Positions 18,156 to 42,913 of a stretch of DNA of 53,764 bases are shown here, piece after piece. A program made the position numbers and the translations under genes. This DNA is from an uncultured Candidatus Melainabacteria bacterium (lineage in GTDB: Bacteria; Cyanobacteriota; Vampirovibrionia; Gastranaerophilales; Gastranaerophilaceae), in NCBI GenBank assembly GCA_947361615.1, contig CANAJP010000005.1, forward strand, positions 1-53,764, read 5' to 3'. Each line of letters begins with the position of its first letter. Position 1 is the first letter of the stretch. Under the pieces are notes generated by a model. That model was not told where the DNA came from. It saw nothing but the letters and a program-made list of their open reading frames with translations, and made no database searches.

Positions 18156-18234
18156 TAAAACTCATAAAACATTTTAAATAAATGTGACTGTAATTTACCA
18201 ATAATTTTGATAAAATAATATATATTATAATAAG

Positions 18235-23296: not shown

Positions 23297-23370
23297 ATGC
23301 CGTTCAAAAAGTGTTCAAAATGCTCTGTATTGAATTTTTATTTGTATTTAATAAAATGTGTATACTAAAA

Positions 23371-23412: not shown

Positions 23413-23453
23413 GTAAATTAAGATTAATTTAGGGAAGGGTTTAATAAGATATA

Positions 23454-24128: not shown

Positions 24129-24807
24129 TTAATATTCCTTTCAAATCGTATTCTGTAAGCTCATTTATTCCGTTGGTATTGCTTAATTTTTCGAGCCTGT
24201 TTATTAATTTAACAAGTTGTCGGAATTGATCCGTACGAGTGGCAAGATAGTTTATTGCATCATCGCTAAATTTTAATTCAGTTAATTCTTCCAATATTTC
24301 AGCAATCTCGTCAACACCAAAATGCTCAAATTCCAGCTTTTTATATAATCTATCTTCAAAATGTTTAAATCGGGCAATCTTTTTATCAATCAATTTCATT
24401 CCCACTAAAACAATCGGAACCCCTGTCATATCTTGAATATCTCTCAATGCCTCAATTACATTTTTATTCCCGATTAAATAATCTGCCTCGTCAACAATTA
24501 TTATTCTTGAATCCTGTTTCAAATGTTTTAATATCAGCTTGAAATTCTCTTGCATCATATAATATGGTCGTTCGTCAAGTTCTTCGGCAATTGCCTTCAA
24601 AAGCCCATTCTGTGTCATTTCATTATTTGCTCTGACATAAACGGCGTTATTTCTTGTTGCCCACCATATTATTGAGTGGGTTTTTCCAAGCCCATGGTCA
24701 CCATAAACCAACGCTAACTTTGGAATATTGGGTGGAAGTTTCTGAACTTCATCCATCAAACTAATAAATTGTTTGACGTTATTTGTTTTAATAAATGTGT
24801 TTTTCAT
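24076..24807 (-). CDS. MuB/TniB-like AAA+ transposition ATPase
   Basis: 243 residues. Walker A is YGDHGLGKTHS near residue 35-45, Walker B IIIVDEADYLIG near 98, and sensor-1 VPIVLVGMK near 124, with a C-terminal helical lid. MuB-type ATPases bind target DNA as filaments, recruit the transposase and confer target immunity. It starts three bases after the transposase stop and overlaps the next gene by 53 bases, forming one operon. The stop is TGA. Confidence 0.85.
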   Translation of the reverse strand: MKNTFIKTNNVKQFISLMDEVQKLPPNIPKLALVYGDHGLGKTHSIIWWATRNNAVYVRANNEMTQNGLLKAIAEELDERPYYMMQENFKLILKHLKQDSRIIIVDEADYLIGNKNVIEALRDIQDMTGVPIVLVGMKLIDKKIARFKHFEDRLYKKLEFEHFGVDEIAEILEELTELKFSDDAINYLATRTDQFRQLVKLINRLEKLSNTNGINELTEYDLKGILNERPSIKAVQKIEKLYA

Positions 24808-24810
24808 AAT

Positions 24811-26826: not shown

Positions 26827-27138
26827 ACATTAACTCCGAAGAGTGAAAATTGGAACACCACTTCCGAGCATTGTGTCGGTTTTGTATCAATTAATTATTG
26901 AAAATTTTTAAAAGAAAATGTAAAGTAACATATAAAATGAGAACAAACGACCTTGCCGAAAGTGTAAGCAATAAAGGGTGGAAGGGCGAATTTCACGTGT
27001 TAGAAAATTTACGGAACTTAAAAATGCGGAACTAATTTTATGGAACTTTTGGAAGTCATTTTAAGTTACAATCAACTATAAAAAATATAATCTGAGAAAA
27101 ATATTTGATACTTGCTACAATTATATACAATCTGTTGA
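26827..27138. other. Intergenic region upstream of the transposase
   Basis: About 310 bases without a convincing gene on either strand. Near the transposase start, CTCCGAAGAGTG and CACTTCCGAG form an imperfect inverted repeat that might be an operator. The rest is AT-rich. Confidence 0.5.
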
Positions 27139-27699
27139 TTATTGCATTCCTTTTAATGCATTCCATTCATGTTCTAAAATGGACATAAATATAATATCTG
27201 CATATTTATCCCCATCAAGTATTGCATTTCGTTTTATGCCTTCTCTTTTGAAACCAGCTTTCAAATATGTACTTTCTGCTCTTGTGTTATAGGAATAAAC
27301 TTCTAATTCTAAACGATGTAATTTTAATTTGTTAAAAGCAAAATCACGGGTCTTTTCTGTTGCCCAAGTACCAAGCCCATGTCCTCTTTCTGCTGCATGA
27401 TAAATTGCAATACGAAAATGTGCATAACGTAAATCCCAGTCTATTTCATTAATTACACTTTCTCCAACAATTTTACCATTAGGGGATATAATCAGAAAAA
27501 AATATATATCTTTGTTATTAATAGATTTTAAAAAGAAAGAAGTTACATCTTCTTTGGTGAATTCTTGTTTGGAACCGGTTAACCTTGCAACTTCCTTATC
27601 AAGAGGACAATAATTTTGCTCATAATATTTCGAGACATCTTCATTTTGAGCTAACCTAAGTATATATCCATCTTTTTTGCTTAAAATAAACTGTTTCAT
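27139..27699 (-). CDS. GNAT-family N-acetyltransferase (RimJ/RimL type)
   Basis: 186 residues spanning a complete GNAT fold: N-terminal beta strands, IVGESVINEIDWDLRYAHFRIAIY (residues 73-97), the acetyl-CoA loop ERGHGLGTWATEKTRDFAF (about 100-118, QRGxGxG type), and the C-terminal SYNTRAESTYLKAGFKREG. These enzymes acetylate protein N-termini, amines or antibiotics; the substrate here is unknown. It lies inside the transposon near its right end, apart from the transposition operon, so it is cargo. Ribosome site weak (GAGAGA). Confidence 0.85.
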   Translation of the reverse strand: MKQFILSKKDGYILRLAQNEDVSKYYEQNYCPLDKEVARLTGSKQEFTKEDVTSFFLKSINNKDIYFFLIISPNGKIVGESVINEIDWDLRYAHFRIAIYHAAERGHGLGTWATEKTRDFAFNKLKLHRLELEVYSYNTRAESTYLKAGFKREGIKRNAILDGDKYADIIFMSILEHEWNALKGMQ

Positions 27700-27865
27700 A
27701 AAAAATTATCTCTCAAATTTATTATAGTATAAAGATATCGAAGTTATAAAAAATCATCAAACTAACTATCAATAATTATAAAATTGTATGTGAATTTATC
27801 TCAAACCACGTGTTAATTTACAAGAAAAAAACGGCAAATCGGGAGTAATTTTAAAACGGTCACTG

Positions 27866-28093
27866 CCCAAAATAATCAAACCATTTGACCCAGCCAAACA
27901 CAGTGCCGAAAGATAGGCTATGCTTAGGTTTAAAACCAAAAACCCAAAATAATCATACCATCTGCCCCGACCATTAAAAGACCGTTTTGACCGTTTTCAG
28001 TTCACATGGTTTGATTATTTCCTACCCCTCAAACCCGCTCACAATGCCGATTGCCCAAAATAATCGCACCATCTGACCTAATCAAACCACTCA
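27866..28093. repeat. Transposon right-end binding-site array
   Basis: Copies of the end motif lie at 27866-27888 (CCCAAAATAATCAAACCATT), 27943-27964, 28001-28020 (inverted, TTCACATGGTTTGATTATTT), 28054-28076 and a partial terminal one at 28079-28093. The left end has two such sites, the right end five, a left-right asymmetry known from Mu and Tn7. Confidence 0.8.
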
Positions 28094-28196
28094 ATAAAAT
28101 ACATACTGCAAAACAAGGAATTGAAGAATATGGTTACGACAAATTCTTTGAAGTTCTAAAGGAAAGCAAAAACGATTGTATCAAAAGCATTAAAAA

Positions 28197-28212
28197 AGAG
28201 CCCGCAGGCTCT
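28197..28212 (-). terminator. Former tRNA-Ala terminator copy
   Basis: AGAGCC-CGCA-GGCTCT; read on the minus strand it is followed by TTTTTT. It equals the hairpin at 42795, which lies just downstream of tRNA-Ala. Confidence 0.6.
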
Positions 28213-28239
28213 GTTTATAATCGTTTCACTTGTATGAAA

Positions 28240-28247
28240 TGGTGGAG
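28240..28247. other. Attachment-site copy at the junction of the tandem elements
   Basis: TGGTGGAG equals the last eight bases of tRNA-Ala (CTCCACCA on the minus strand). Sequence to its left is shared with 42706-42837; sequence to its right is not shared. This marks where the left element ends and the right one begins. Confidence 0.6.
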
Positions 28248-28378
28248 CTTGACATACGATTTAACACTCCACATTCTTAAAAATGCCGCATAGCTTAGGA
28301 TTTGGACTAGTTTGATACCCACAATTTTTTGAGTTCAAAATTCTGAAATCCTTTAGCAAAAAACTGCAGATATATAAA

Positions 28379-28771
28379 TTACTCCAATCCAGGTAACACT
28401 TTAGTGATATAGGCAAAAGACTGAGGTGGAGTGAAGTTTGGATTTTCTTCGTATGGATCAATCGGATTGCTAAAAGTTTCAAATTCTTTAATCTTTATAG
28501 CATAACCTTTTTCTTTTCCTTTAAAATATTCAAAAAAATCATGGTAATTTATACCTGCAAAATTATTATAATTATTCCATAATTCTTGAGGAGTGTCCTC
28601 AATTATATCTTCAACAAGTATTTTACCTACGATTTGTTTTGTAGGTGAAGATTCATAAACAAAAATTTCATCTATTTCTTGTTTAAATATTGATTTTCTA
28701 AACTCATACAGTTTATTTCCTGTTTGAATTTCTTTAACGTATTTAGGTTTAATTGATAGTAAAACACTCAT
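28379..28771 (-). CDS. ASCH-domain protein
   Basis: 130 residues. The N-terminus has the ASCH hallmark SIKPKYVKEIQTGNKLYEFR, then strands KQIVGKILVEDI and KGYAIKIKEFE of the PUA-like barrel. ASCH proteins bind RNA or modified nucleotides and are often antitoxins or translation-linked regulators. It overlaps the upstream PIN-GNAT gene by 23 bases on the same strand, so the two are coupled, and both contain ASCH/EVE-like barrels. A toxin-antitoxin or RNA-modification role is inference. Confidence 0.75.
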   Translation of the reverse strand: MSVLLSIKPKYVKEIQTGNKLYEFRKSIFKQEIDEIFVYESSPTKQIVGKILVEDIIEDTPQELWNNYNNFAGINYHDFFEYFKGKEKGYAIKIKEFETFSNPIDPYEENPNFTPPQSFAYITKVLPGLE

Positions 28772-30269
28772 TTACATTATCCTTTATAATTTTTCTATAA
28801 TTTACATCTGTAATTTCGGTTATACTTCGAATTGGACCAGTTATAATATTTTCTTTTAACAAACTGTTATATGATACAGGCTTTTTGAAATGAAAATGCT
28901 GATTAAATAAAATAACCAAGATTGGAGATTTGCTAATGGCTTCAATATCACTTCTAGAATATACCGTTCTTTTAGCCGTAAGTTTTTGTATCTTTTCAGC
29001 ATCGGTCAAATTTCTTTCTATTTTTTCTACGATTCCTAAAGTTGTAATCATCATGTCATCCTCAGATCTATAAAATAACAGAATATCACCAACTGAAATT
29101 TTTCCTGTAATGGCATGTGATAGATAAGCTTTTTTTATAGAATTCCCCTCACTATTTGGATGTAAAGTTAACAAAGTTGTTTGCCTTGTAGGTCTGAAAG
29201 AATCATAATCTGGGAATAACATTTTATGGTAATAAGGTATTATCGGAACTAAATGTTTTTTAACTTTTTCACCATCATAATAACTCGGATAATATTTCCT
29301 AGATAGTTCTTGAATATCAAAATCCACTAAATCTGTTGTTTTGGGTGCGATAATTGATTTTAAAAAGACTTCTTCATGCCTACTATTCTTTCCTATAAAT
29401 TCAAATCCAAAACTATTTATTAAAGGAACTAAATAATCATTTTCTTCTGTAAAATGAGTTAAGTATATATATGTAAGATTATTTTGTATTGCATAATCTA
29501 TTGCCATACTAATTAATCTTTCCCCTAACTTTTTCCCCCTAGCAATCTCTGCAACTTTGAATAGGCAAATCTTTAATATCTTTTCAAAATCTACTGGTGC
29601 AATAAAATCAATTTCATTTACTGTTTCAATTTTCGGTATTAGCAAAGCATTAATTCTATTTTTATTATCTGTAAAAGTATAAACATCTCGATCTTGCTTT
29701 ATAACCTTATTTGGCCACCAATAAGACATAAATTCGGGATAATCATGTTTTAATGTATCAAAAATTGGATCTTCTAAATTTATCTGAAAGCCTTTTTTCT
29801 TACAAAAACTTGGTGTAGAATGAATGTCTGTTTTTACAAGATACTCAGAAAAAATCTCAATAGCTTCTCTTGGACTTATTACAGTTTGGAGTCCTAATTT
29901 ATCAGCTTTATTTATTAATTTTTGATCTTCGGTAATTAAATAATCTACAACATTCCCATATACACAATATAATAGTTCATTATCAATAGTATCATTTTCG
30001 TTTTGAGGAATTTCTAACTGATTACAAAAATAATCATCTTTTAAAGCCTCAGGTACAGTTTCTAAAACTATATAAGCTTCAATCTTAGAAAGATTGGCTT
30101 TTTGACGTTCAAGATTACAATCTTTTTTAATTTCCTTAATCGATAAGGGATGAATTACTCTTTGATATTGCAAACGCTCTACAATATTATATAAAGTTTG
30201 TATGTGCTGTGGGATTTGGTGATAATTTTCTCTTAATATTAAAATATTAGTATCCAATAATAATCGCAT
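28749..30269 (-). CDS. PIN-GNAT-ASCH-like three-domain fusion protein
   Basis: 506 residues. Residues 1-140 are a PIN ribonuclease domain with acidic residues in LLLDTNILI (Asp 6), the TIDNELLYC region (near 93) and LITEDQKL (near 114). Residues 150-320 are a GNAT fold with the acetyl-CoA loop EIARGKKLGERL (near 242) and NSFGFEFIG. Residues 380-500 form an ASCH/EVE-like barrel (VGDILLFYRSEDDMMITTLG, then VEKIE). RNA cleavage, acylation and nucleotide reading are thus in one chain. The ASCH gene follows with a 23-base overlap. It is divergent from 30342. Toxin of a conflict system is my best inference. Confidence 0.75.
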   Translation of the reverse strand: MRLLLDTNILILRENYHQIPQHIQTLYNIVERLQYQRVIHPLSIKEIKKDCNLERQKANLSKIEAYIVLETVPEALKDDYFCNQLEIPQNENDTIDNELLYCVYGNVVDYLITEDQKLINKADKLGLQTVISPREAIEIFSEYLVKTDIHSTPSFCKKKGFQINLEDPIFDTLKHDYPEFMSYWWPNKVIKQDRDVYTFTDNKNRINALLIPKIETVNEIDFIAPVDFEKILKICLFKVAEIARGKKLGERLISMAIDYAIQNNLTYIYLTHFTEENDYLVPLINSFGFEFIGKNSRHEEVFLKSIIAPKTTDLVDFDIQELSRKYYPSYYDGEKVKKHLVPIIPYYHKMLFPDYDSFRPTRQTTLLTLHPNSEGNSIKKAYLSHAITGKISVGDILLFYRSEDDMMITTLGIVEKIERNLTDAEKIQKLTAKRTVYSRSDIEAISKSPILVILFNQHFHFKKPVSYNSLLKENIITGPIRSITEITDVNYRKIIKDNVNECFTIN

Positions 30270-30341
30270 GTGTTCATAATACTACACTATTCATTATTTG
30301 TAAATGATAATTTCCCCCTAAATAATAAACAGGAGATTTTT

Positions 30342-30893
30342 ATGTATTATTTTCCAAACCTTGATGAACAAACACGATTGAATATGGTTAGCGAACTTAA
30401 TAGAGATATTTGCGCAGGCTTATTCTACAAACCTGTATCTTTGAACTCATCATGCCTGCTAAGTTACAAAAGATTATTGCGCGACTGTTTTGAGGGTGGA
30501 ACACCCGAAACCTTAACTCAAAAACTTACACATAGCTTCTTCCGTGAAAAAGACAGAAACGGACGAAAAATTCCTACTAACATTGCTCAAGCTCTTGCAT
30601 TCAGTGACTTTAATCGTTACTACATTAGAGCCTTACTTTTGCGAGCAATTAGTGAAAACAAAAGTCTTTATGTTTATAGAGCTAAACAATCTCTTAACGA
30701 ACGTCAAAAGTCAAAGCTGGCTGTTAACAAGCTATACAGTGACAAACACATTATCTTAGAATTGCTGAAAATCTTTAGAGATTTCCGCTTGTTATTCAAT
30801 GTGAAACCTCAACCAGAACTCCTAAAGCCAAACTCTGGGCTTAGCCTTAGGTTCGTTGGGCAAAATGCTGAAAGGCAAAGCTATGAGTTCTAA
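30342..30893 (+). CDS. Unknown helical protein of the element
   Basis: ATG at 30342 is chosen for the AGGAG six bases upstream; the 72 bases before it are intergenic leader. The 183 residues are helical and basic, with a central LAFSDFNRYYIRALLLRAI segment and LYVYRAK following. No family recognised, no signal peptide or membrane segment. It is convergent with the Xre gene; the 92 bases between hold nothing obvious. It might be a small DNA- or RNA-binding accessory of the mobile element. Confidence 0.6.
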   Translation: MYYFPNLDEQTRLNMVSELNRDICAGLFYKPVSLNSSCLLSYKRLLRDCFEGGTPETLTQKLTHSFFREKDRNGRKIPTNIAQALAFSDFNRYYIRALLLRAISENKSLYVYRAKQSLNERQKSKLAVNKLYSDKHIILELLKIFRDFRLLFNVKPQPELLKPNSGLSLRFVGQNAERQSYEF

Positions 30894-30985
30894 CAAAAAT
30901 TTTTCAAGAATTGCTCGAATTTCTACAAGCCATATTATGCTGAAAACTTTTCTAACAACTATCAACAATTACAGAGAAAATCTTT

Positions 30986-31318
30986 TTACTTTAACTCTTT
31001 GTATGACATCAAAATTTTATGAAAAAAGCGAATTTCATCTAATGTTGAATGCTCAAAAATTCTATTTATATCTTCTAACAACTCTTTTTTTGTTTTCAAA
31101 TGACCAAAATCAAATAAATCCTGAATATCAACATTCAGCGCTTGAATAATTTTATTCAAACTATCGTCTTTTGGAAGATGTACCCCTTTTTCAATTTTAC
31201 TCAAGTTAGTGGCTTCCATATCAATCAATTCAGCAAGTTCAACTTGTTTCATATTTCTTGCTTCTCGTAGTTCTTTTATGCGTTTTCCAACTTGTGTACT
31301 TAATGTAGACATGTTCAC
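30986..31318 (-). CDS. Xre-family transcriptional repressor
   Basis: 110 residues. Residues 8-63 are a Cro/CI-type HTH (VGKRIKELREARNMKQVELA, then MEATNLSKIEKGVHLPKDDS). The tail is a short helical dimerisation region. It is transcribed divergently from the five-gene AAA+ operon across 151 bases that hold a good promoter and palindromic AT-rich sites. Control of that operon, and self-repression, is therefore likely. Confidence 0.85.
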   Translation of the reverse strand: MNMSTLSTQVGKRIKELREARNMKQVELAELIDMEATNLSKIEKGVHLPKDDSLNKIIQALNVDIQDLFDFGHLKTKKELLEDINRIFEHSTLDEIRFFHKILMSYKELK

Positions 31319-31392
31319 CTCTTACATTAAGTATACTTTATTATTATTGTCATAAAAAGATTAAAATGTGTCAATATCATACACAAAAATGA

Positions 31393-31422
31393 TTGACTTA
31401 TTATCACAAATGATTATATACT
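31393..31422 (+). promoter_or_regulatory. Sigma70-type promoter of the AAA+ operon with overlapping operator-like repeats
   Basis: TTGACT (31393-31398) and TATACT (31417-31422) with an 18-base spacer. ATGATTA...TTATCAT arms flank the -10, so a bound Xre dimer would block it. Confidence 0.6.
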
Positions 31423-31469
31423 TATCATTAATAAATACTTTCTTGTTTTAACACTAAAAAGGAACGTTC

Positions 31470-31976
31470 ATGCCTAAGCCAATCATAAATAATAAAAGTC
31501 ATACTTCTTTCGAAAAACTATCATTTATTGAAATGGATACTTTCAAGAATCCTGAACTAGCTTTTAGACAAAAACGCCCACAAAGTTACTTAAATCTTAT
31601 GAAAAATTTAGATGTTAATGGTGCCAAAATATCAGAAGATAAACTTAACGAAATTATTAATGAATTACGTAATACTGTACCTCAAATCTCTCTTGATGAA
31701 ACTTTCTTAGGTGTTTTAGGAAAATGTTATTTAGGAATTGGTTATGATGTGCATACTTTAAGTAAAAGTATTATCTTTGGAATGGATGAGGCTACACACG
31801 AATTAGGTTATGGACGAATGATTCTAAAGCATTTCAAAATAGGAGAAAATTTACCAACAGAATTAGAAAGAGCCAGAAATTTGGCGAGCAATCCAAATTA
31901 TCAATTTGTTGAAGTTTATAGCAATAAAATTATTGCGGTTTTAGCTGATGGAAATGTAGCAATCATAAAAAAATAG
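31470..31976 (+). CDS. Unknown protein, first gene of the Ycf46-like AAA+ operon
   Basis: 168 residues after AAAGGA. The N-terminal 60 residues are polar; the centre is helical (EDKLNEIINELRNTVPQISL). The C-terminal part ends in short strands (YQFVEVYSNKIIAVLADGNV). No known domain. It lies 10 bases before the coiled-coil gene. Because only this operon and the divergent repressor share the promoter region, it likely works with the AAA+ protein, perhaps as its substrate or sensor. Confidence 0.6.
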   Translation: MPKPIINNKSHTSFEKLSFIEMDTFKNPELAFRQKRPQSYLNLMKNLDVNGAKISEDKLNEIINELRNTVPQISLDETFLGVLGKCYLGIGYDVHTLSKSIIFGMDEATHELGYGRMILKHFKIGENLPTELERARNLASNPNYQFVEVYSNKIIAVLADGNVAIIKK

Positions 31977-31986
31977 AGAGGAAAAA

Positions 31987-33720
31987 GTGTCTGAAAATAC
32001 TATTGATGATTTAAAAAATGAAATGCATAATACTCAAAGTGAAATGCATACCATTACGGCACTTATGAGTGAAGAATTTACTCGTTTACACGCTAAAATT
32101 GATGAAGTTGACCATGAAGTTACATTAACGAATAAAAATGTCTTAGAAACTCGAAAAGATTTAGTTACTTTTACAATAAGATTTGAAGCTTTTGTTCAAC
32201 AAATTGAGCGAGAAAACGCTCTAACACATGCACAAGTAGATGTTGTAATGTTAAACCAAGAAATAGAGAAAAAATTTGGGATTTATGACAAGGTTCGAAG
32301 AGTTTTATTAGGCATTTTACAATCAGTTGATACTGGATTAGTTAGCAAAAATGCAATAACTAATGCAACTGAGAATTTAATGTTAGGAACGCCAAACTAT
32401 TGGCTTACACCATCTCTTGTTGCACTTGCTGCTTGGATAAGAAATAACAAACCTCTTGCAGAAAAAGCTCTAAACGAAGGTCTAAAAAGAAATTTGATAA
32501 AGACAGAACTAATGTTTACTTTAATCAATAACAGATTAAAACGAAACAATGCGAGTTTTATGTGGTTAAGTAAATATTTTGAGACACAAACGCCATTTGA
32601 AATGCCACAAGAAACATTGGTATTACTTGGAGCTTATGCGGACGGAGTTTTTGGACCAGATTCCCATGGCATTTGTAGAAAGCAAATTGAACATTGGGTT
32701 CAATTGTTATCACAAGATAGTGAAAGGGTTAAATCTCTTGAAGAAACTTGGTTAAACAAAATCAAGTTATTAGAAATTGATAAAGATACAACACCGTTTA
32801 AATATTTATCTTCTAACTGTGTTGAATGGACAAGACTTAGACAACTCTTAGAAGCTGCGAAAAAACAAAAAACACTATTACAATACTTAAAAAGCATAAT
32901 TGAAGCAAAAGATATTCAAAAAAGCTATGTAACAGAACTGGATGACTTGTTATTTAAGCTAGTAAATGAATATGATACGGATGAATTTGAGTTAAAAAAG
33001 AAAAAAACTTTGGCAGAGTTAATTATCAAATACGAGGGAGATAAGGAAAAAGCTCAACAAGATTTTGATACAAATGTAATCATTTTATTTAAAGAAAAAG
33101 TTTCATTTTTTGACATTCTAGTTAATTCAGTAAATAAAACAGAAATGTCGCCAATACTTAGAAGACTTTCCTTACTATTTATGAAAGAATGGATATTAAA
33201 TGCACATCACGATTTCACCGCAGAGTATAGATTAGGCTATCTATCAAATATCACAATACAAATTGGCGACTGGCATGCATCAACCAAAGATGGATCTAAT
33301 GTTAACGAATTGATAGAAAAATACAAACAATACTTACAGGATAATTACAATAAAATTATGGGCGAAATTCGTGGTTCTATAATAACTAGAGGTATTTTTC
33401 TTATACTCTGCTCTATATGGATGCTATTTTCATCATTTAGTAGTCCTGCGGTTTTTATTAGTAGTATGTTTGGTTTTGCACTAATAAAAAGTATAATTAA
33501 TTTTTTCAAGACACGATCTCAGCTTAAAGAAGAAATGCGACAAAAGAATGAAGCTGCAAAACAAACATGTCATGCGTTTTGTGCCGAGTATGTCGATTGG
33601 CAAAAAGCCTATAAAGAAGCAGACAAAGTTACTAATGATGTTCAAAACTATCTTAAAAGATTCACAACTGAAGAATTTTCTGCAAACAGTACAGGACGCA
33701 AAATTATTAATAAGATATAG
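31987..33720 (+). CDS. Coiled-coil protein with C-terminal membrane hairpin
   Basis: GTG start with AGAGGA upstream; 577 residues. Residues 5-90 are coiled coil (heptads in LKNEMHNTQSEMHTITALM and after). A long helical region with LTPSLVALAAWIRNNKPLAEKALNEG follows. Two adjacent hydrophobic segments at about 465-482 and 484-500 (GIFLILCSIWMLFSSF, then FISSMFGFALIKSIINFF) form a membrane hairpin near the end. The protein ends STGRKIINKI, a tail shared with the AAA+ protein of the same operon (NTGRKVLI). It could be a membrane-acting effector or scaffold; no family recognised. Confidence 0.65.
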   Translation: MSENTIDDLKNEMHNTQSEMHTITALMSEEFTRLHAKIDEVDHEVTLTNKNVLETRKDLVTFTIRFEAFVQQIERENALTHAQVDVVMLNQEIEKKFGIYDKVRRVLLGILQSVDTGLVSKNAITNATENLMLGTPNYWLTPSLVALAAWIRNNKPLAEKALNEGLKRNLIKTELMFTLINNRLKRNNASFMWLSKYFETQTPFEMPQETLVLLGAYADGVFGPDSHGICRKQIEHWVQLLSQDSERVKSLEETWLNKIKLLEIDKDTTPFKYLSSNCVEWTRLRQLLEAAKKQKTLLQYLKSIIEAKDIQKSYVTELDDLLFKLVNEYDTDEFELKKKKTLAELIIKYEGDKEKAQQDFDTNVIILFKEKVSFFDILVNSVNKTEMSPILRRLSLLFMKEWILNAHHDFTAEYRLGYLSNITIQIGDWHASTKDGSNVNELIEKYKQYLQDNYNKIMGEIRGSIITRGIFLILCSIWMLFSSFSSPAVFISSMFGFALIKSIINFFKTRSQLKEEMRQKNEAAKQTCHAFCAEYVDWQKAYKEADKVTNDVQNYLKRFTTEEFSANSTGRKIINKI

Positions 33721-33728
33721 GTGAATTT

Positions 33729-33881
33729 ATGGAAGAAAATAAAAATACAAACGTTAATCAAAACAAAATTCAAGATAACAAACCGGAATTCACTAGAAAT
33801 GAAAAAATTGCGGTAAAATTCCCTGATTGGGATTTATTACCACCAGAATTATTAGTAAAAAGGAACTTATATGAAACCTAA
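33729..33881 (+). CDS. 50-residue peptide with a PDWDLLPPELL motif
   Basis: ATG at 33729 with AGGTG seven bases upstream, eight bases after the previous stop; it overlaps the next gene's start by 11 bases. The first 27 residues are Asn/Lys-rich and likely disordered, followed by VKFPDWDLLPPELLVKR. A short peptide with one conserved-looking aromatic/Pro motif is typical of adaptors that dock on larger partners. Its place in the middle of a tight operon argues that it is real. Confidence 0.6.
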   Translation: MEENKNTNVNQNKIQDNKPEFTRNEKIAVKFPDWDLLPPELLVKRNLYET

Positions 33882-34320
33882 AATTTATGCAGATTGGTGT
33901 AATATTTTTGACAAAATCGAAACTTGGGAAATCGGACATATAGACGAAGTCTTGCTTTCTGATATGGAAAAAGGTACGATTGATTGGGTTGATGGTGTTT
34001 CGCAAAGAATTACTTTAAGACTAATTGTCTTAGTCAATAAAAGATTACAAAATCTTTGTAATTTTTACAATAAAAGAATAGCAATGTTATACAATCCATT
34101 TGATTTAACAAATTTATTGATAATCTTTCGTAAAGAACTTATATTTCTCAAGCGTTTAAATGATTTACCTATATTACCAGAAGATACAAGGAAAGGTTTA
34201 GTTGAAGACATAATAAATTATGCCAAAAAAGTTCAACAATCGTTAGAAGATAATGCTAAAAATGATTTATCTGGAGAACTCAAAAGGGTTATTAATAGTT
34301 ATAGGATAGACAATATTTAG
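33871..34320 (+). CDS. Unknown helical protein of the AAA+ operon
   Basis: 149 residues, AAGGA eight bases upstream. All-helical and without known motif; begins with an aromatic stretch (YADWCNIFDKIETWEIGHID) and continues with amphipathic helices (RLIVLVNKRLQNLCNFYNKR). It overlaps the 50-residue gene and lies 12 bases before the AAA+ gene. Possibly a helical adaptor or antitoxin-like partner of the ATPase. Confidence 0.6.
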   Translation: MKPKIYADWCNIFDKIETWEIGHIDEVLLSDMEKGTIDWVDGVSQRITLRLIVLVNKRLQNLCNFYNKRIAMLYNPFDLTNLLIIFRKELIFLKRLNDLPILPEDTRKGLVEDIINYAKKVQQSLEDNAKNDLSGELKRVINSYRIDNI

Positions 34321-34332
34321 AGGTATAAAATA

Positions 34333-35892
34333 GTGAGTAGTGTTAAAGATTTTTCAAACAAAGTAAAACGATATTTGATTGCAAGAATACCATTTATTTC
34401 AATTAATTCAATAGAAAGGGCAAGGGTTCTTGATATTTTTACGAAATTGAATGAAGAACTGCATTTGCCAATATATGTACACACTCTTTCTAAGGGTATT
34501 ATCGATTTATCCTCAAATAATCTTGTTAATGAGGACAAATCAATAGTAGGAGCTTTAGATTTTATAAGCCAACAAATATCACAACGCCAAAATTTAACAT
34601 TTATTCTAACAGAAGTTACCGATATTCAAGATGATTCTATAACTGCAAGACATTTTCTTGATCTGGTAACTTTAGCTGAAGAACGTGGGGCTGTAATTAT
34701 TGTCATAAACAATAATCCGATTTGGAAACAGTTACAACGACTGGGAATGTCATTAGAACTTGACTTACTCGATGAAGATGAAGTTTATACAATCATAAAA
34801 GATAGTATTAAGCCATATCAGAATAGCGTTTCACTTGAATGGGATAATACTGATTATAAACAAGTCGCAAGTATTCTAACGGGATTAAGTAAAATTGAAA
34901 TTCAAAATATAGTTGCTACACTAATTGCAAAAAGAGAGATTAAAAAATCTGATATAACTGAAATCGTCACAATTAAAGATAGTATGTTCTCAAATATATC
35001 AGGTTTAGAAAAAATCCATTGTTCTGAAAACGATATTAATGTTGGTGGATTAAAAGGGTTAAAGTGTTGGTTAGATAATAAAAAAAGCCTTTTGTCACCT
35101 GAAAAGAAAGAAGTTTTAAAATCACGTAATATAAGATTACCACGTGGAGTATTACTCGTTGGCGTTCCAGGTTGCGGTAAAAGTTTACTGGCTAAATTTA
35201 TTGCAAGTAACTGGCAATTACCTTTATATAGACTTGATTTTGCAACCATTCAGGGTATGTATGTAGGGCAATCTGAAAATAGATTAAAAGATGCTTTATC
35301 ATTAGCAGAAACGGTTTCTCCGTGTATACTATGGATTGACGAAATTGAAAAAGGTCTTGTTGGAGCACAAGGCATGGATTCCAGTGGAGTTTCAACAAGA
35401 ATGGTTGGTCAGTTTTTATTCTGGTTACAAGAATCTCTAAAATTTGTATTTGTCGTTGCAACGGCAAATGATGTTTCAAAGCTACCACCTGAATTATTAA
35501 GAAAAGGACGTTTTGACGAACTGTTTTTTGTAGATTTGCCTAATGAAACAGAACGTAAAGATATCCTTGATATTTATTGCAAAAAATTTCTTAGAAAAAA
35601 TTTTAAAGAAGATGTCTTAATGAAATTAGTATCATTAACAGAAGGTTTTTCAGGCGCAGATATTGAATCAACCATTAAAGAAATTGCTTACAAAACAATA
35701 ACCTCAACAGAGGAACAACTGTCAATGCAAACAATCGTTTCTAATTTCAAAAATGTTGTACCATTATCAAGAACTAATCCTGAAAAAATTGAAACTATAA
35801 GACAATGGGGAAAAGAACGAGCTATCCCTGCTTCCGGTAAATTCTCATCTGAAACAGATAGTGAAAATACTGGACGTAAGGTATTAATCTAG
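34333..35892 (+). CDS. Ycf46-like AAA+ ATPase
   Basis: GTG start with AGAGG upstream; 519 residues. The N-terminal 240 residues match the degenerate first half of Ycf46-type proteins (RQNLTFILTEVTDI, then RGAVIIVINNNPIW). The active AAA+ domain has GVPGCGKSLLAKF (near 280), LWIDEIEKGL (near 333), sensor-1 VVATANDVSKLPPELLRKGR (near 374-393, with the arginine finger) and a C-terminal lid with FSGADIES (near 436). Housekeeping Ycf46 proteins occur in cyanobacteria and plastids; this one sits in a mobile island, so it has been recruited. The C-terminal tail NTGRKVLI resembles that of the coiled-coil partner. It overlaps the convergent gene by four bases. Confidence 0.85.
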   Translation: MSSVKDFSNKVKRYLIARIPFISINSIERARVLDIFTKLNEELHLPIYVHTLSKGIIDLSSNNLVNEDKSIVGALDFISQQISQRQNLTFILTEVTDIQDDSITARHFLDLVTLAEERGAVIIVINNNPIWKQLQRLGMSLELDLLDEDEVYTIIKDSIKPYQNSVSLEWDNTDYKQVASILTGLSKIEIQNIVATLIAKREIKKSDITEIVTIKDSMFSNISGLEKIHCSENDINVGGLKGLKCWLDNKKSLLSPEKKEVLKSRNIRLPRGVLLVGVPGCGKSLLAKFIASNWQLPLYRLDFATIQGMYVGQSENRLKDALSLAETVSPCILWIDEIEKGLVGAQGMDSSGVSTRMVGQFLFWLQESLKFVFVVATANDVSKLPPELLRKGRFDELFFVDLPNETERKDILDIYCKKFLRKNFKEDVLMKLVSLTEGFSGADIESTIKEIAYKTITSTEEQLSMQTIVSNFKNVVPLSRTNPEKIETIRQWGKERAIPASGKFSSETDSENTGRKVLI

Positions 35893-36668
35893 TTTTTATG
35901 GTTTATTTGTTCAATAACCATGTCCAAATCTTCTTTATATATTCCATTAAAATATGTAAAGTAATCAACAATTTTGTCATCTTTGTCAGTCCAAATTTCT
36001 TGCAATTTTTTCTTTAGAGTAAGGCTACCGCTTAATTCACAAGCTATTTCATAAATTAAATTCCAGTCAGGAATATCAAATTCAACATTTACTATTGAGC
36101 GTAGTTTTTCATTCTGTAATCTAACAAAATGATTTCTATGAGTATATTTAATATAGAGTATTTTGTGTCGGAACTTTAATAAAATTATTAATGTTTTAAC
36201 ATTAAACCCACCGCTAGCATATTGATTTTTCAAGGAAATATTAATAATATGTATATTATCGAATTCTACATTCAAGCTATTAATATCATCGGGTGAAATT
36301 TCTTTTGAATTTTCACCTTTAAAAATAAGAAAAATATTATCTTCCTTAAAATCGCATAAATATTTTCCATTGAAATTATTTATGTCTTTTTCGTATTGTT
36401 CTAAACTCTCAAAATGCCCTTTTTCTTTAAAAATCATGACTTCACATCTTAAACAAAAAATATTCCATAATTTATCACAATCACTTAATGTTTTATCACC
36501 TAAGCATTTGCATAATATATATACTAAAATATCTTTATCCTTTTCCGTTATTTGCAGATTAAAAAGTTCATCATTTTGGTTTTTAACTTTTAATTTCTCG
36601 TATGATAATAAATCGTTCAAAGCTATATTATCAAGCTCCACAAAATAATGAGTTGAAAAATTACTCAT
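35889..36668 (-). CDS. Unknown protein, second gene of a minus-strand pair
   Basis: ATG at 36668 is chosen because GAGGTG lies eight bases upstream; the longer version would run through most of the preceding gene's end. About 259 residues of mixed alpha/beta, including a repeated-strand centre (FDNIHIINISLKNQ, then FRHKILYIKYTHRNHF) and a helical C-terminus. No known motif. It overlaps the upstream Zn-knuckle gene by eight bases and converges with the AAA+ operon, ending in a four-base overlap. Confidence 0.6.
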   Translation of the reverse strand: MSNFSTHYFVELDNIALNDLLSYEKLKVKNQNDELFNLQITEKDKDILVYILCKCLGDKTLSDCDKLWNIFCLRCEVMIFKEKGHFESLEQYEKDINNFNGKYLCDFKEDNIFLIFKGENSKEISPDDINSLNVEFDNIHIINISLKNQYASGGFNVKTLIILLKFRHKILYIKYTHRNHFVRLQNEKLRSIVNVEFDIPDWNLIYEIACELSGSLTLKKKLQEIWTDKDDKIVDYFTYFNGIYKEDLDMVIEQINHKN

Positions 36669-37095
36669 CAAAAAGCACCTCAAACAAACACAATTCTGAC
36701 TTAATAGAATCTTTTTTAACTGCATAAACAATTAAAGGTTGTAAGTCTTTCATATTTTCCCTTGCAAATCTCTGGAATTGTTTCCAATTCAGGATTCGTT
36801 TTTCAATTTTATAAAAAGCCTGCGCCTCTGAATCTATAATATTATCATTTTCATCACGATTTAAAACTTCATCCCAAACATAGCCTTCACTTTCTTTATC
36901 AACAAAACTATTGATTAACCTAAGATTGTGTTGGTAATATCTTTTTGCGAAATCAGAAGAAAATTCAGTACAGGTTTTACCACATATTTTACATTTATAT
37001 CGTGGCTTTCTTTTTGGTGTAAAAGCAAAGAGAGACCATTCATGTTTATGGCCGTCTATATTCCCTTCAATAAACTTTTTATGTCTTGATTTCAT
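36661..37095 (-). CDS. Zn-knuckle-containing unknown protein
   Basis: ATG at 37095 (GTG at 37104 is an alternative) gives about 144 residues. It is basic at the N-terminus with KSRHKKF..., then CKICGKTC (near residue 34), a CxxC knuckle probably completed by nearby His/Cys. The rest is helical (KIEKRILNWKQFQRFARENM). It overlaps the next gene and shares its transcript. A palindrome lies across the start region. Nucleic-acid binding is plausible from charge and zinc motif only. Confidence 0.6.
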   Translation of the reverse strand: MKSRHKKFIEGNIDGHKHEWSLFAFTPKRKPRYKCKICGKTCTEFSSDFAKRYYQHNLRLINSFVDKESEGYVWDEVLNRDENDNIIDSEAQAFYKIEKRILNWKQFQRFARENMKDLQPLIVYAVKKDSIKSELCLFEVLFDE

Positions 37096-37098
37096 AAT

Positions 37099-37116
37099 TT
37101 TCACACTAATGTGAAA
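37099..37116. promoter_or_regulatory. Palindrome at the start of the Zn-knuckle gene
   Basis: TTTCACA-CTAA-TGTGAAA is a perfect 7-bp inverted repeat immediately upstream of the chosen ATG; operator or translational hairpin. Confidence 0.45.
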
Positions 37117-37310
37117 TACTGTGTACCATAAAAACTAATCCTGGTCAAGATATTCCCGAAATATAATTTTATGAAATCACGAGTTTAAAAAACATCCCAA
37201 ATTTTGTAATATATATATATCAACCGCAAGGCAACCAGCACATTGACAACTGAATACAGAAAAGTCGAACTTTAGTTCATAGAAAGTAGAAATTAAAGAA
37301 AGGGGGACAC

Positions 37311-37430
37311 ATGGAACAAGAAAACAAAAAAACTTCCGTTCCGCATTCAGACAGCAGCTGAACAGAACAACAAAAACAAGAGATTAAACAGCTAATAAAA
37401 ATCATTATACAAACAATGCTAAAGCTCTAA
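37311..37430 (+). CDS. Small ORF with one in-frame TGA (38 amino-acid codons)
   Basis: AAGGGGG lies five bases before the ATG. Sixteen codons (ending SVPHSDSS) lead to TGA at 37359-37361, and the same frame continues for 22 codons (TEQQKQEIKQLIKIIIQ...) to TAA. The second part is an amphipathic helix with no start of its own. The region 37117-37310 upstream is AT-rich and probably holds the promoter of the recombination module. It may be a leader or a small protein read through TGA. Confidence 0.45.
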
Positions 37431-37468
37431 ATTTATTGCAATAACAATTATTAAAGGAGGAAAGAAAA

Positions 37469-37960
37469 ATGAAAAGAAATACAATAAAATTAGGTCCAGT
37501 ACCCATAGAAGAATTAATCGAAATGATACCAGAATCATTAAAGAGCACATACAAGAATTTACCATATATAAACTTAGAAAAAGCAAAGGATAGATATAGG
37601 TATAAGATTAATTGAAATCAAGCAAGTAGCATTACACAATTTTATGTTAGTACAATGCTTGCGAATTATTCGGCAAAAGACTTGAAACAGAATTATGTTA
37701 CAATAGAGATACCTGAAGCATTAGTTCCTTGTATGAGCTATATTAATCAATTAAATCTCACATTTAGAAAAGGAAACTCCGTTTTTGCTATAACAATAGA
37801 CTGTTACCGTATCTTAACAGTTAGGTATCTAGGTAACGTATTTCAAGAAAGTTTGACGTGGTTCTATGATATAAAAGACATTCTATGCACAGAAGGTGTC
37901 GTTAAAGATAAAAATTATTGTAAATTTTGGAATATTAGTGACGACTATAGGGAAATATAA
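37469..37960 (+). CDS. Small unknown protein gene with one in-frame TGA
   Basis: Strong AAAGGAGG nine bases before the ATG. The first 48 codons end at TGA (37613-37615) after DRYRYKIN; the frame then stays open for 115 codons to TAA. The next ATG (37655) has no ribosome site. The combined product would be about 164 residues, with EELIEMIPESLKSTYKNLPY early and strand-rich sequence later (GNSVFAITIDCYRILTVRYL). Family unknown. The position before a DUF927-like ATPase matches small genes of ccr-type modules. Confidence 0.5.
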
Positions 37961-37997
37961 TTACTTAATATCACATAAGAAATAATAGCATAAGATA

Positions 37998-38024
37998 CAA
38001 GAGGGTATTAACCCTCTTGTTTTT
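37998..38024 (+). terminator. Hairpin terminator directly before the Shine-Dalgarno of the ATPase gene
   Basis: CAAGAGGGT-ATTA-ACCCTCTTG followed by TTTTT, a perfect 9-bp stem. AAGGAG at 38025-38030 begins right after the T-tract, so downstream expression must pass the terminator or start inside it. Confidence 0.8.
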
Positions 38025-38035
38025 AAGGAGTAAAA

Positions 38036-39715
38036 ATGACAAAATATATAACTAATAAAAATAATTGTTTGCATTACTGTTTTGTTGATAAAAACAATAA
38101 TGAACAGTGTGAGAAAATCGCGAATTATAGTATCGAAATGCTTTTTACACTTGAGCGGACGAATTCAAGCAAAAACAAGTATCAAAAAGTTGAAAGTAGT
38201 GTTTTGCGACTGCGCAAAGCAGACAAACCGAATATTTCCTATATCAAAATCCTGAACGGCGAAGATGAAAGCGACAGAAAACTTTTCTTTAAAGCTTTAC
38301 ATCAGAATACTGTTGGTTTATTTGAAATATTTGACAACAAAAAATATCTGTTGCTCTTGCAAATGCTCTACAACAATCAAAAAACCGTCAAGATTTATCA
38401 AAATTTTGGCTATCAGCCAGCAGAAAATATATTTGTTACAGGCAACAAAATTTTCAACCATTCAACAAATACTTTAGAGAGATATCCGAAATTGCCTGAT
38501 TATATTTGACTTACAGATGAAGAAAAACTCCAAATTCTCTCTGCAAACGAAAATATTCCGATAATTTCTCAAGTCGATTGTCCTAAAATCATAATGAAAG
38601 AATTTTTCAGAGAAATCGTTAAGGTTTTTAATTATGCACCAGCGCTAATGGCAATCGCAGTCACTATTGCAGTTGCATTTTGGGACATTTTTATCTCAAA
38701 AGCGCAAGGATTTCCATACGTAATTTTCTATGGCGACTCAAACGCAGGAAAATCAACAATTGTTCGATTTTTAGCAGCAATTTTCGGGTTTGGCAACTCT
38801 ACAAAGCTGACAAGCGGAACATCTACAATGGTTGCATTAAGAGCAGAGCTTGAACATTACAATAATATCCCCGTTTTTATTGAGGAACTTGATAAAAAAC
38901 GGATTGATAATATTGAAGATTTAGGCAAAGATAGTTTCTCTGCCACACCAAGGAAAAAATCATCAAAAGACAACAAAGAAATCGTAACCGAAATTAACAC
39001 AACATTTTGTGCGGCAACTAATCATTTCTTTGAAAACATGACTTTTGCGAATTTTTCAAGGTTTATACCTGTCAATTTAACCACAGGACAATTTGACCTA
39101 ACAGATTTTCAATATCACCATTCATCGAGTAAGTTAGAAAAATTATCCTGTTTTCTACCAGAGATTTTATCTTATAGAGATAAAATCTTTTCTATTTATG
39201 AGCAGGAATACAAAATAGCTCAAAAATACTGCAATCACGCAAGGATTTGCAACAATGCGGCTATTGGTATGGCTATGTGGACAGCTATAAATACCATTTT
39301 AGATGAAAAACTTGTTGATACGGAAGTTTTAGCAAAAGATTATCTAAAATATTTTGAACAATATCTTGATACCGAAACAAAGTATTGCGATATTTTCCTA
39401 GCTGATGTTTATAGCTTATTCAACAAAGAAGAACTCATATATGACAGAGATTTTGTGATAACCAAAAACAAGTATTTAAGGATAAATCTTAAAAAATACT
39501 GTGACATCTATAACAGCACACACGAAAATACAAAACTTAATACCAGAGAACTTAGGTTAAAGCTCAACAACGACAAACGAATAATATCATTAGTGGCAAC
39601 AGATATAAAACCTATTGGAAAAGCTATTAAAATAGATATTTCAGAACATGAAACACTCTTAAATATCAAAGACAGAATACCAGAACTAAAGGAGCATGAC
39701 GATTATGAAGACTAA
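38036..39715 (+). CDS. DUF927/Cch-like ATPase of the recombination module, with one in-frame TGA
   Basis: ATG after AAGGAG. The frame runs 157 codons to TGA (38507-38509, after KLPDYI), then without any other stop to TAA at 39715, 559 residues plus the TGA position. The second half, which lacks its own ribosome site, has Walker A GDSNAGKSTIVRF (near residue 238), a conserved SGTSTMVALRAELEH segment, Walker-B-like PVFIEELDK, and AATNHFF as sensor. This order matches the DUF927 helicases (Cch) found beside ccr recombinases, thought to help replicate the excised element. It overlaps the recombinase gene that follows. Nonsense mutation or TGA readthrough are both possible. Confidence 0.7.
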
Positions 39716-41135
39716 ACGAAAAATTGCTGATGTATATATACGGTTATCAACTAAAAAACAGGAAGACGGTATGTCAAAAGAAACACAAGAGAAAGAGTGC
39801 CAAAAATATTGTGAAGAACACGGAATATTTTTAAGAAAAATCTATTACGAAAACAAAAGCGGAATTACACCATATAACAGACCCGTTTTTTATGAGATGA
39901 TTGCAAACCAGCAAACAAAAGACAAAGCTGACATAATTATTTGTTTCTGTGCTAATCGCTTAACAAGAAATCACGTCGATTTTTATCCGATTAAAAGTCT
40001 TGTTGATGACCACGGAACAAAGATTATCTTTGTCAAAGAGAATATTACGATAGAAAAGCCCTTTAAGGCTCACGAAGAATTTTTAATTGACATAATCGTT
40101 GCCAGTTCAAAATTCGAGGTTAACCACATGAATGAAATTCGTAAAAAAGGGCTTATCGAAAGAGCCAAAACAGGAATAAAACCAACAAAAATGCCTTATG
40201 GATATAAAATGCTAAAGAGAAAAGTTGTTATTATCCCTGAACAGGCAATTTTTGTTAAAAAGGCATTTGAATTATACTCAAGTGGTAAATATTCTCTTGC
40301 AACTTTGCCCAATGAACTATACGAGCAAGGTTTTAAGTATAAGTTACAGGCTGATGGGAAAATTCCTAAAGCAACACTTGCTTGTATGCTAAAAAATATG
40401 TTCTATACCGGATTTTATACATATCCAGGTGTGGAAAATATCATAAAGGGTAAACATAAGCCGATTATTGAACAAGATTTATACAATTGAGTTCAAAAGG
40501 TTTTCAAGTCTGTTACCCCTGAGAACCGTCAAAAACGACATTTTTTGTATTCAAATATGATTACACTCCAAGAAACTGGCAACTTAATGGTAGGTGAACT
40601 CAAAAAAGGTAAATATGTATATTACACCGCATTTGATAACAACAAAAAACGACACAGCATAAATGAAACAGTCGTTACAGATACTATCTTAAATTACTTC
40701 AAAGAAATTCGGCTCAGTTTAATACCTAAAGATATTGTTAACGAAGTCATAAAGGAAGAATTAGAACCTTTGAAAAAGCAATATTCTACTTTAAAGCGTA
40801 ACAAAAGCCGTAAATTTCACAAAAAACTACAACTTATCGACCATATTAAGACATTAGGTTTTAATGATGAAGATTTCATTATTGATGAGTTGAAAAATAT
40901 CCAAAACCTTTACTACGACTTGCCTGAAAGGGTTGAGCAGCTAGAAAATAAAATCAAAAACCTTACACTAAATTGTCAGAATATTATGAAAAAACGACTT
41001 TACGACGTTTTTATTCAAATGAACATTGAAAATCAACGCAAAACTATTGAACTTGTAAAAAATAAACTTGAAGTTCAAGACAAACGGGTAAAACTTACGT
41101 TTAAACCTACTTTTCGTAAAATTCGACAACGATAA
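39705..41135 (+). CDS. Large serine recombinase 1, with one in-frame TGA and a Cys-less zinc-ribbon region
   Basis: ATG at 39705 fits AAGGAG ten bases upstream; a start at 39696 would be too close. The resolvase domain (YIRLSTKKQ with catalytic Ser near residue 14, then the RLTRN region) and recombinase domain (PYGYKM...AIFVKKAFELYSSGKYSL) are intact. TGA at 40488-40490 falls just before VQKVFKS, where the paralogue at 41269 has Lys. The frame then continues to TAA at 41135 with a coiled coil. The zinc-ribbon Cys residues of the paralogue are replaced (TLQETG for KCAVCG, YYTA for YYRC). With the next gene it forms a ccrA/ccrB-like pair. Confidence 0.75.
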
Positions 41136-41156
41136 TTTATATATATCTGAATTTCT

Positions 41157-41182
41157 AAACCGCACCTAAAGTGCGGTTTTTC
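41157..41182 (+). terminator. Hairpin terminator after recombinase 1
   Basis: AAACCGCAC-CTAAA-GTGCGGTTT followed by TTC TTG, a perfect 9-bp stem 21 bases after the stop. It separates the module from the second recombinase. Confidence 0.85.
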
Positions 41183-41268
41183 TTGTATATAAGCACAAAC
41201 ACTTTACTTCCTTGGAAAACGAGTAAAAATTAAAAACAAATTTTTCAGATTATTCAAGGAGTTCAGAT

Positions 41269-42867
41269 ATGCTAAACAAAAAAGTTGTGATTTATGCCAG
41301 AGTTTCCAGCAGGGAACAAGAGCGCGAGGGATTTTCTATTCCGGCGCAGTTAAAATTATTACGTGGTTACGCAATGAAAAACGGATTTGAAATCGTAAAA
41401 GAGTATTCAGACGCCGAAACAGCCAAGAAGGCAGGTAGGACAAATTACAATCTTATGCTTGACTTCCTTAAATCCAATCCCGAAGTCAAAACCGTACTTG
41501 TCGAAAAGACTGACAGGCTTTACCGCAATTTCAAAGATTACGTTACTCTTGAAGATTACGACCTTGAAGTACATTTAGTCAAAGAGGGTACTATTATTAG
41601 TAAAGACTCTAAATCTCATGACAAATTTATCCACGGAATTAAGGTCTTAATGGCTAAGAATTACATAGACAACCTCTCTGAAGAAATCAAAAAAGGATTA
41701 CACGAGGGGTTGGAAGAGGGTTACTGGCCATTCAATCCACCATATGGCTACAAAAGAGGCGAAAAGAAATGTCTTTACATTGATACAACTAAAGTTTTAT
41801 TCGTCCAAAGAGCCTTTGAACTCTTTGCTACTGGTCGCTATTCCCTACGAAAACTCGCTGAAAAATTATTTGAAGATGGTTACTACTATTTAAGCTCAAG
41901 ACCTAAAATTACCCAATGTGTGCTTGAGGGTATGCTAAAAAACGTTATCTATACAGGGCAAATGAAATGCAACGGTATAATTTACCAAGGTAAACATCCC
42001 GCTATCGTCAGCTTTGACACCTTTAATAAAACACAACAAGCATTCAAAAAGGTTAATAAGTCAAAAGTACGCAAAAACTTCCATTTTCTCTATCCAGGGC
42101 TTGCAAAATGTGCGGTTTGCGGTTATTCAATGTGTGGTGAAGTTCAAAAGAACAATGTTTACTACCGTTGTTCACATCACGACAGACAATGTGTGAACAC
42201 TTCATACATTTCAGAAAAAGAAATGACATCAGCTTTGCGCAGACATCTTTCAAGAATTGCACTTGACGAAAAATTATTTGAACTCCTCAAATATTCGCTC
42301 AATATTAGTCTTAAAGATGAACAGAATTTTCACAAAAAAGAAGTTACACGTATTAATTTAGAAATAGAACAATGCACGGAAATTCTTAAAAAGATGTATA
42401 TTGATCAAATCAACAAAGTTTTAGACGTAGATTTATGGTTAAACTTCAAAAATGAATACGAAGTCAAGTTGAACAAGCTCAATGCAGAACTGCAAAGATA
42501 CCAAAATGCTAATGTTGACTATATGCAAACGGGCATGAAACTTCTTGAAATCTGTCACAAAGCAAGTTTACCATACTCGAAACTTTCACCTCAAGAAATT
42601 GCACAAATGGTTTGGCAAACATATTCCTCAGTCACAGTTCAAGGAAAAAGCGTCAAACTTAAATTCGCAGAACCCTTTGACACTATTGAAAAGCTCGTTC
42701 GTACAGCAAAACAAGGAATTGAAGAATACGGTTATGACAAATTCTTTGAAGTTCTAAAGGAAAGCAAAAACGATTGTATTCAAAGCATTAAAAAAGAGCC
42801 ATCAGGCTCTATTTCTAATCGTTTCACTTGTATGAAATGGTGGAGAATAGGAGACTCGAACTCCTAA
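41269..42867 (+). CDS. Large serine recombinase 2 (probable integrase of the tRNA-Ala element)
   Basis: ATG after AAGGAG; 532 residues without internal stops. Resolvase domain residues 1-150 (VIYARVSSREQEREG with the catalytic Ser, KTDRLYRN), recombinase domain to about 260 (PYGYKRG), zinc ribbon 280-320 (KCAVCGYSMCGE...YYRCSHHDRQC), coiled coil 335-410, and a C-terminal domain. The frame crosses the attachment octamer and ends 30 bases inside the antisense of tRNA-Ala (last residues WRIGDSNS), so the C-terminus is set by the integration site. The same gene is the source of the remnant at 17519/28108. It has its own promoter region after the terminator at 41157. Confidence 0.9.
   Translation: MLNKKVVIYARVSSREQEREGFSIPAQLKLLRGYAMKNGFEIVKEYSDAETAKKAGRTNYNLMLDFLKSNPEVKTVLVEKTDRLYRNFKDYVTLEDYDLEVHLVKEGTIISKDSKSHDKFIHGIKVLMAKNYIDNLSEEIKKGLHEGLEEGYWPFNPPYGYKRGEKKCLYIDTTKVLFVQRAFELFATGRYSLRKLAEKLFEDGYYYLSSRPKITQCVLEGMLKNVIYTGQMKCNGIIYQGKHPAIVSFDTFNKTQQAFKKVNKSKVRKNFHFLYPGLAKCAVCGYSMCGEVQKNNVYYRCSHHDRQCVNTSYISEKEMTSALRRHLSRIALDEKLFELLKYSLNISLKDEQNFHKKEVTRINLEIEQCTEILKKMYIDQINKVLDVDLWLNFKNEYEVKLNKLNAELQRYQNANVDYMQTGMKLLEICHKASLPYSKLSPQEIAQMVWQTYSSVTVQGKSVKLKFAEPFDTIEKLVRTAKQGIEEYGYDKFFEVLKESKNDCIQSIKKEPSGSISNRFTCMKWWRIGDSNS
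42795..42810 (-). terminator. Terminator of tRNA-Ala, inside the recombinase 3' coding sequence
   Basis: AGAGCC-ATCA-GGCTCT; on the minus strand the stem is followed by TTTTTT and lies 28 bases after the tRNA 3' end. The element thus brings a replacement terminator for the gene that it enters. Confidence 0.7.
42838..42845. other. Right attachment site at the tRNA-Ala 3' end
   Basis: TGGTGGAG, the complement of the tRNA's terminal CTCCACCA. It is shared with 28240-28247, with homology to the left and divergence to the right. Confidence 0.6.
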
Positions 42868-42913
42868 CCCCCTGCGTGCAAAGCAGGTGCTCTACCAATT
42901 GAGCTAATCCCCC
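42838..42913 (-). tRNA. tRNA-Ala(UGC)
   Basis: 76 bases including an encoded CCA. Acceptor arms GGGGGAT / ATTCTCC contain the G3-U70 pair that identifies alanine tRNAs. The anticodon stem-loop is CCTGC TTTGCAC GCAGG with anticodon TGC, and the T-arm is AGGAG TTCGAGT CTCCT. All cloverleaf arms form. The gene is the integration target of the element to its left. Confidence 0.95.

Follow-up and report, generated by a model that had tools for sequence, protein, structure and literature searches.

In-frame UGA codons recur in orf1 and the Cch-like helicase gene of an SCC-like element family in Gastranaerophilaceae and may be maintained as readthrough sites

Results

The window analyzed here, a stretch of 53,764 nucleotides with a G+C content of 33% from a host genome of 1.83 Mb (G000; other G numbers denote the genomes of relatives), contains an SCC-like integrated element at approximately positions 28248 to 42845. 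The ends of the element were inferred from a direct repeat of 144 bases (28104-28247 and 42702-42845) that ends in TGAAATGGTGGAG: the right end would correspond to the 3' end of a tRNA-Ala (TGC) gene located on the reverse strand at 42838 to 42913, the probable attachment site, and the left end to the end of an older copy of rec2. The element consists of defence-type cargo, followed by orf1, orf2, a helicase gene, rec1, and rec2. Among the cargo genes are a PDC-M11A defence candidate (28749-30269) and a gene for an IetA-like ATPase (34333-35892). The remnant of the older rec2 copy lies on the forward strand at 17518 to 18099 and resumes at 28104-28247. Inside it sits an insertion of approximately 10 kb (18100-28103) that carries, besides the HamA and HamB genes of a Hachiman system, a TnsB-like (24811-26826) and a TnsC-like gene (24076-24807), and that has TACTG as a possible target duplication of 5 bases; this insertion looks like a Tn7-like transposon with defence genes.

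The five genes that follow the cargo are all encoded on the forward strand. The first, orf1 (37311 to 37430), encodes a small protein of 39 amino acids, and orf2 (37469 to 37960) a protein of 163 amino acids. The helicase gene (38036 to 39715, 559 amino acids) encodes a Cch/SaPI-Rep-type MCM-like helicase with a DUF927 match, an assignment that draws on Pfam, profile, and fold comparisons. A profile built from 18 relatives matches PDB entry 5dgk, the SCCmec Cch protein (E 7.8e-5), and the predicted structure, with a mean pLDDT of 86, has 5dgk as its best fold match (E 8e-15), followed by SaPIBov1 Rep. The two large serine recombinases, rec1 (39696 to 41135) and rec2 (41269 to 42867), both contain Resolvase and Recombinase domains; rec2 additionally has a zinc ribbon and CcrB/XisF-like matches, with the match to the CcrB model (2e-22) lying far under the cut-off of that model. 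The combination of a Cch-type helicase with two large serine recombinases suggests that the element works as an SCC element does, but integrates at a tRNA gene. The final codons of rec2 fall inside the tRNA-Ala gene of the window, and the rec2 frame appears to enter the attachment-site tRNA gene in G144, G007, G108, G155, G268, and others as well, so that the last codons of this gene would come from the host tRNA.

In agreement with the original prediction, which was made from the letters of the window, the four consecutive genes between 37311 and 41135 each contain exactly one in-frame TGA, with no internal TAA or TAG and no frameshift, and each frame closes at a TAA. The TGA codons are located at 37359 to 37361 in orf1 (context AGC TGA ACA), 37613 to 37615 in orf2 (AAT TGA AAT), 38507 to 38509 in the helicase gene (residue 158, ATT TGA CTT), and 40488 to 40490 in rec1 (AAT TGA GTT), while rec2 has five TGG codons and no in-frame TGA. 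When these genes are read through, the expected family motifs do continue past the TGA, as had also been claimed: the DUF927 match spans the TGA of the helicase, and rec1 yields both the Resolvase and the Recombinase domains. A fifth in-frame TGA within the window, at 18777, lies in the gene for HamB, the helicase of the Hachiman system (18235 to 20829, reverse strand). Among approximately 787 kb of the same genome scanned outside the window, with flanks judged by eye, no other gene was clearly split by a TGA.

We searched 383 genomes of the host family for relatives of the element and recovered 13 helicase genes of at least 49% identity, counting that of the window, the others belonging to 12 other species. 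One of these genes (G255) is frameshifted and was left out. Among the 12 readable helicase genes, comprising that of the window and relatives 49-94% identical to it, ten carry one or two in-frame TGA codons and never a TAA or TAG. The TGA is found at residue 158 in G000 and G121, at residue 58 in G144, G174, and G155 (residue 57 in G275), at residue 106 in G268, G233, and G368, and at residue 413 in G007, with a second TGA at residue 141 in G174. Five different columns of the alignment therefore hold a TGA, and the residues of the other members at these columns are Arg or Ile; Leu, Ile, or Asn; Phe, Leu, or Asn; His, Tyr, Pro, or Gln; and Trp. TGG is absent, among the few lineages available, from the orf1 site and from helicase columns 61, 108, 144, and 161. 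The helicases of G271 and G108 have no TGA, and neither do those of six more distant relatives. On the tree, the presence of TGA requires two changes, so that the tendency to hold a TGA appears to predate each of its present positions. Judged by these alignments, a TGA in orf1 and the helicase gene is a family trait of these elements. An order-wide search added no further elements, and no relatives were found in viral contigs (helicase and rec1) or in phage and plasmid records (helicase).

Several of these helicase genes have a composite structure. In G155 and G275 (loci L157 and L159), the first approximately 300 bases are highly diverged and the remainder is approximately 98% identical, a pattern of mosaic recombination; both genes retain the TGA at residue 57/58, within the diverged 5' part. 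G268, G233, and G368 share an identical 5' helicase segment amid stretches of high and low identity. A constraint on the RNA was considered for this segment and rejected, the mosaic pattern being read as recombination.

In orf1, a TGA is present at the matching place in nine elements, those of the window and eight relatives, where it is preceded by a codon for Ser or Gly; at this place, Phe is found in most relatives without a TGA. The orf1 alignment is short, which makes the match less secure for G155 and for the G268 group. The base after the matching TGA is A in all but one element, and two elements (G144 and G174) have two TGAs in orf1. The orf1 and helicase TGAs co-occur, with nine elements carrying both, one the helicase TGA only, and eight neither (p = 4e-4 if relatedness is ignored, 0.045 within the clade). 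Related elements share the TGAs of orf1 and the helicase gene, but not those of orf2 and rec1, which are private to G000. The place in orf2 is poorly conserved, and the orf2 genes of the relatives contain TGG but no TGA; in rec1 the relatives' column reads AAA, AAG, CAA, CAG, or AGT, mostly Lys, with TTA in G121. The HamB TGA is likewise private, with CGA (Arg) in a 93% identical relative (G158) and Cys, Asn, or Lys codons in four more distant ones. A private TGA in place of codons of mixed identity had been named at the outset as the sign of a simple nonsense mutation, and orf2, rec1, and HamB bear that sign.

These private TGAs are what would be expected if the stops were ordinary nonsense mutations in elements heading to inactivation, and so are the frameshifted helicase of G255 and the indels of G121 (locus L107), in which rec1 is broken by two single-base indels and rec2 by one such indel and a 15-base deletion. 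Most of the G121 changes affect one base of a short homopolymer, so that sequencing error is possible, as is decay. Such decay sits poorly with orf1 and the helicase gene, where the TGAs are common to several species, every stop is TGA, and the sequence behind the TGA is under purifying selection. Behind the shared helicase TGAs, dN/dS is 0.11-0.32 overall (0.15 for G000/G121, 0.21 for G144/G174, 0.32 for G155/G275, 0.16 for G144/G155 at a dS of 1.27, and 0.11-0.14 in the G268 group), with p = 2e-15 for purifying selection on the back half of the helicase in G000/G121. In the same pair, dN/dS is 0.19 behind the orf1 TGA, and rec1 (0.11) and rec2 (0.08) are constrained too. Readthrough, recoding in the active element, and recent decay had been offered side by side; for orf1 and the helicase gene simple decay is disfavoured, and as an account of the TGAs as a whole we regard it as very improbable.

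Of the single-base changes that create a stop codon in these helicase genes, 20-23% produce TGA. The probability that all five independent helicase columns are TGA is approximately 4e-4, and approximately 3e-6 when the three orf1 sites are included (eight in total), values that assume independent gains, which were counted by hand. The ratio of TGA to TGG is 21:14 in orf1 and the helicase gene versus 2:60 in orf2, rec1, and rec2 (p = 4e-10, with copies that are not independent), the latter genes having TGG and TGA counts of 15/1, 3/1, and, over ten elements, 42/0, respectively. Expressed per codon, there are 8 gains of TGA in 598 codons of orf1 and the helicase gene versus 2 in 1150 codons of the other three genes (p = 0.004). 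As the relatives are few and partly recombinant, several of these p-values treat related sequences as independent.

The bases that follow the four TGAs differ within the window, as had been noted; among the relatives, however, TGA-CTN predominates in the helicase gene (four of the five columns; p = 5e-5 by codon frequency). As a stop, TGAC is weak (PMC12421855), and 4 of 57 native TGA stops in the host are followed by C (p = 6e-4 against the helicase columns). The use of the differing next bases to exclude a leaky context is weakened, since the helicase sites favour weak TGA-C. Tandem stops behind native host TGAs (22/57) show no significant excess (p = 0.23).

The strongest rival to a regulatory role is that UGA is leaky enough in these hosts for TGA nonsense mutations to be near-neutral in weakly expressed element genes, in which TAA and TAG are purged; the TGAs would then drift and have no regulatory effect. 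Such neutral tolerance would fit the exclusive use of TGA and the purifying selection, and it explains well the private TGAs in rec1, orf2, HamB, and G007. It is also in line with the widespread, mobilome-enriched occurrence of in-frame stops with dN/dS below 1 (PMC7918605, which cites 6% readthrough of UGA for B. subtilis). It does not predict, however, the concentration of TGA in orf1 and the helicase gene while rec2, of similar length, has none in ten elements, nor the persistence across deep lineages of the orf1 TGA at a place never occupied by TGG, nor the lack of TGA-split genes elsewhere among the approximately 787 kb scanned. We therefore consider neutral tolerance a doubtful explanation of the whole pattern.

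With respect to decoding capacity, the host carries RF1 and RF2, and prfB, singled out in the original prediction as a gene to look for, is intact and has the usual CTT TGA C frameshift site by which it is autoregulated. TGA closes 47 of 439 long reading frames in the host (approximately 11%). The UCA-anticodon tRNA that was to be looked for alongside prfB was found neither in G000 (37 ARAGORN matches, two of which, at contig ends, were unreadable) nor among the ARAGORN-identified tRNAs of G155, an 8-contig genome, and a low-stringency ARAGORN search for suppressor tRNAs within the elements returned noise only. The ten matches to the tRNA-Sec model over the cut-off were all tRNA-Ser with anticodon TGA. 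Selenocysteine insertion and a genome-wide reassignment of UGA to Trp share with our observations the use of the UGA codon, but in view of these tRNA-Ser matches for the former, and of RF2, the native TGA stops, and the tRNA set for the latter, both are extremely unlikely. Recoding of the whole element is also unlikely, given the rec2 codon counts and the tRNA results. The tRNA-Trp(CCA) of G000 and G155 has A24 and a U27-G43 top pair. The G24A change in tRNA-Trp is reported to favour UGA readthrough (PMC13092985), but A24 may be ordinary in many bacteria.

No gene restricted to TGA-bearing elements was found; a special decoder, if any, would therefore be the host's or external. No conserved RNA structure was found beside the TGAs. 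An external decoder could be a UCA-anticodon tRNA brought by a phage or another element, whereby UGA would be read as Trp and the arrival would be sensed and answered by replication. The lack of a decoder gene in the element and of UCA anticodons among the tRNAs of G000 and G155 would fit such a suppressor in trans, and recoded gut phages are already known from the literature. Yet no recoded prophage was seen in a scan limited to the terminase types sought in the family genomes, 154 of 383 of which carry such genes, none of those listed having an internal stop; rec2 and orf2 use TGG, and no relative of the helicase was found in the phage and plasmid records. We regard this scenario as improbable. 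The sequence examined contains no CRISPR arrays, and hence no spacer link to phages.

Discussion

We propose, with a probability of about 55%, that the TGAs in orf1 and the Cch-like helicase gene are maintained UGA readthrough recoding sites that throttle the replication module of the element. From the pattern of conservation, ribosomes very probably read through UGA in both genes. Most ribosomes would stop at the UGA; the remaining minority would make the full protein by inserting an amino acid there, with tryptophan, by way of the near-cognate tRNA-Trp(CCA), as the likeliest residue. Peptides spanning the sites, with tryptophan or another residue at the TGA, would be such as LPDYIWLTDEEK for the helicase and PHSDSSWTEQQK for orf1. 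UGA would be the stop of choice because it is the leakiest and depends on RF2; it follows that full-length replication protein should be low and should climb when RF2 is short, a link to RF2 that we infer together with any benefit to the element. The helicase TGA would move between lineages because its position matters little. Termination at residue 58, 106, 141, 158, or 413 would leave unrelated fragments, so that a common product could arise only by readthrough. Reinitiation behind the TGA was rejected, as its fragments would differ between lineages. The recombinases would not be restrained by UGA, except rec1, privately, in the window. Neither gene contains a TGA in G271 or G108, so the codon is not essential to the element.

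A stricter form of regulation, which we put forward tentatively as a possibility, is that UGA acts as a translational lock on orf1 and the helicase, silent as long as RF2 is efficient and opened in trans by a shortage of RF2 or by a suppressor tRNA from a phage or element.

If orf1 and the helicase do need UGA readthrough, translation termination would be a control point of SCC-type replication, for which the activator of the replication genes has been stated to be unknown (PMC7581432). Moreover, annotation pipelines will score genes of this kind as pseudogenes, and intact elements would then be counted as dead.

Like staphylococcal SCC, the element integrates site-specifically, occurs in tandem copies, and has a gene for a Cch-like MCM helicase followed by those of two large serine recombinases. 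It differs in its hosts, in that it integrates at a tRNA gene and not at rlmH, in that no CCPol was found in the genes examined, and in the UGA within orf1 and the helicase gene. The autoregulation of prfB likewise involves an in-frame UGA followed by C (CTT TGA C) and an outcome that depends on RF2, but it proceeds by a +1 frameshift, whereas the frame is unchanged here and no internal Shine-Dalgarno was seen. As in phages that recode TGA (code 4), TGA stands within the frames of mobile DNA in hosts with the standard code. Such phages have many recoded genes, in contrast to the single TGA per gene, the TGG kept elsewhere, and the absence of any suppressor tRNA seen in our case. A precedent is the work of Belinky et al. 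2021 (PMC7918605), who describe conserved in-frame stops that have dN/dS below 1 and are enriched in the mobilome, with TGA as a leaky stop, so that the kind of phenomenon is already known. Their set spans all stops and functions, whereas ours concerns TGA only, at a moving position and in a pair of co-occurring genes from a single element family. Among the open-licence papers listed in our literature searches, we found no earlier report of a UGA-bearing SCC-like replication module; what is new here is this module, the exclusive use of TGA, its co-occurrence in two genes, and its changing position.
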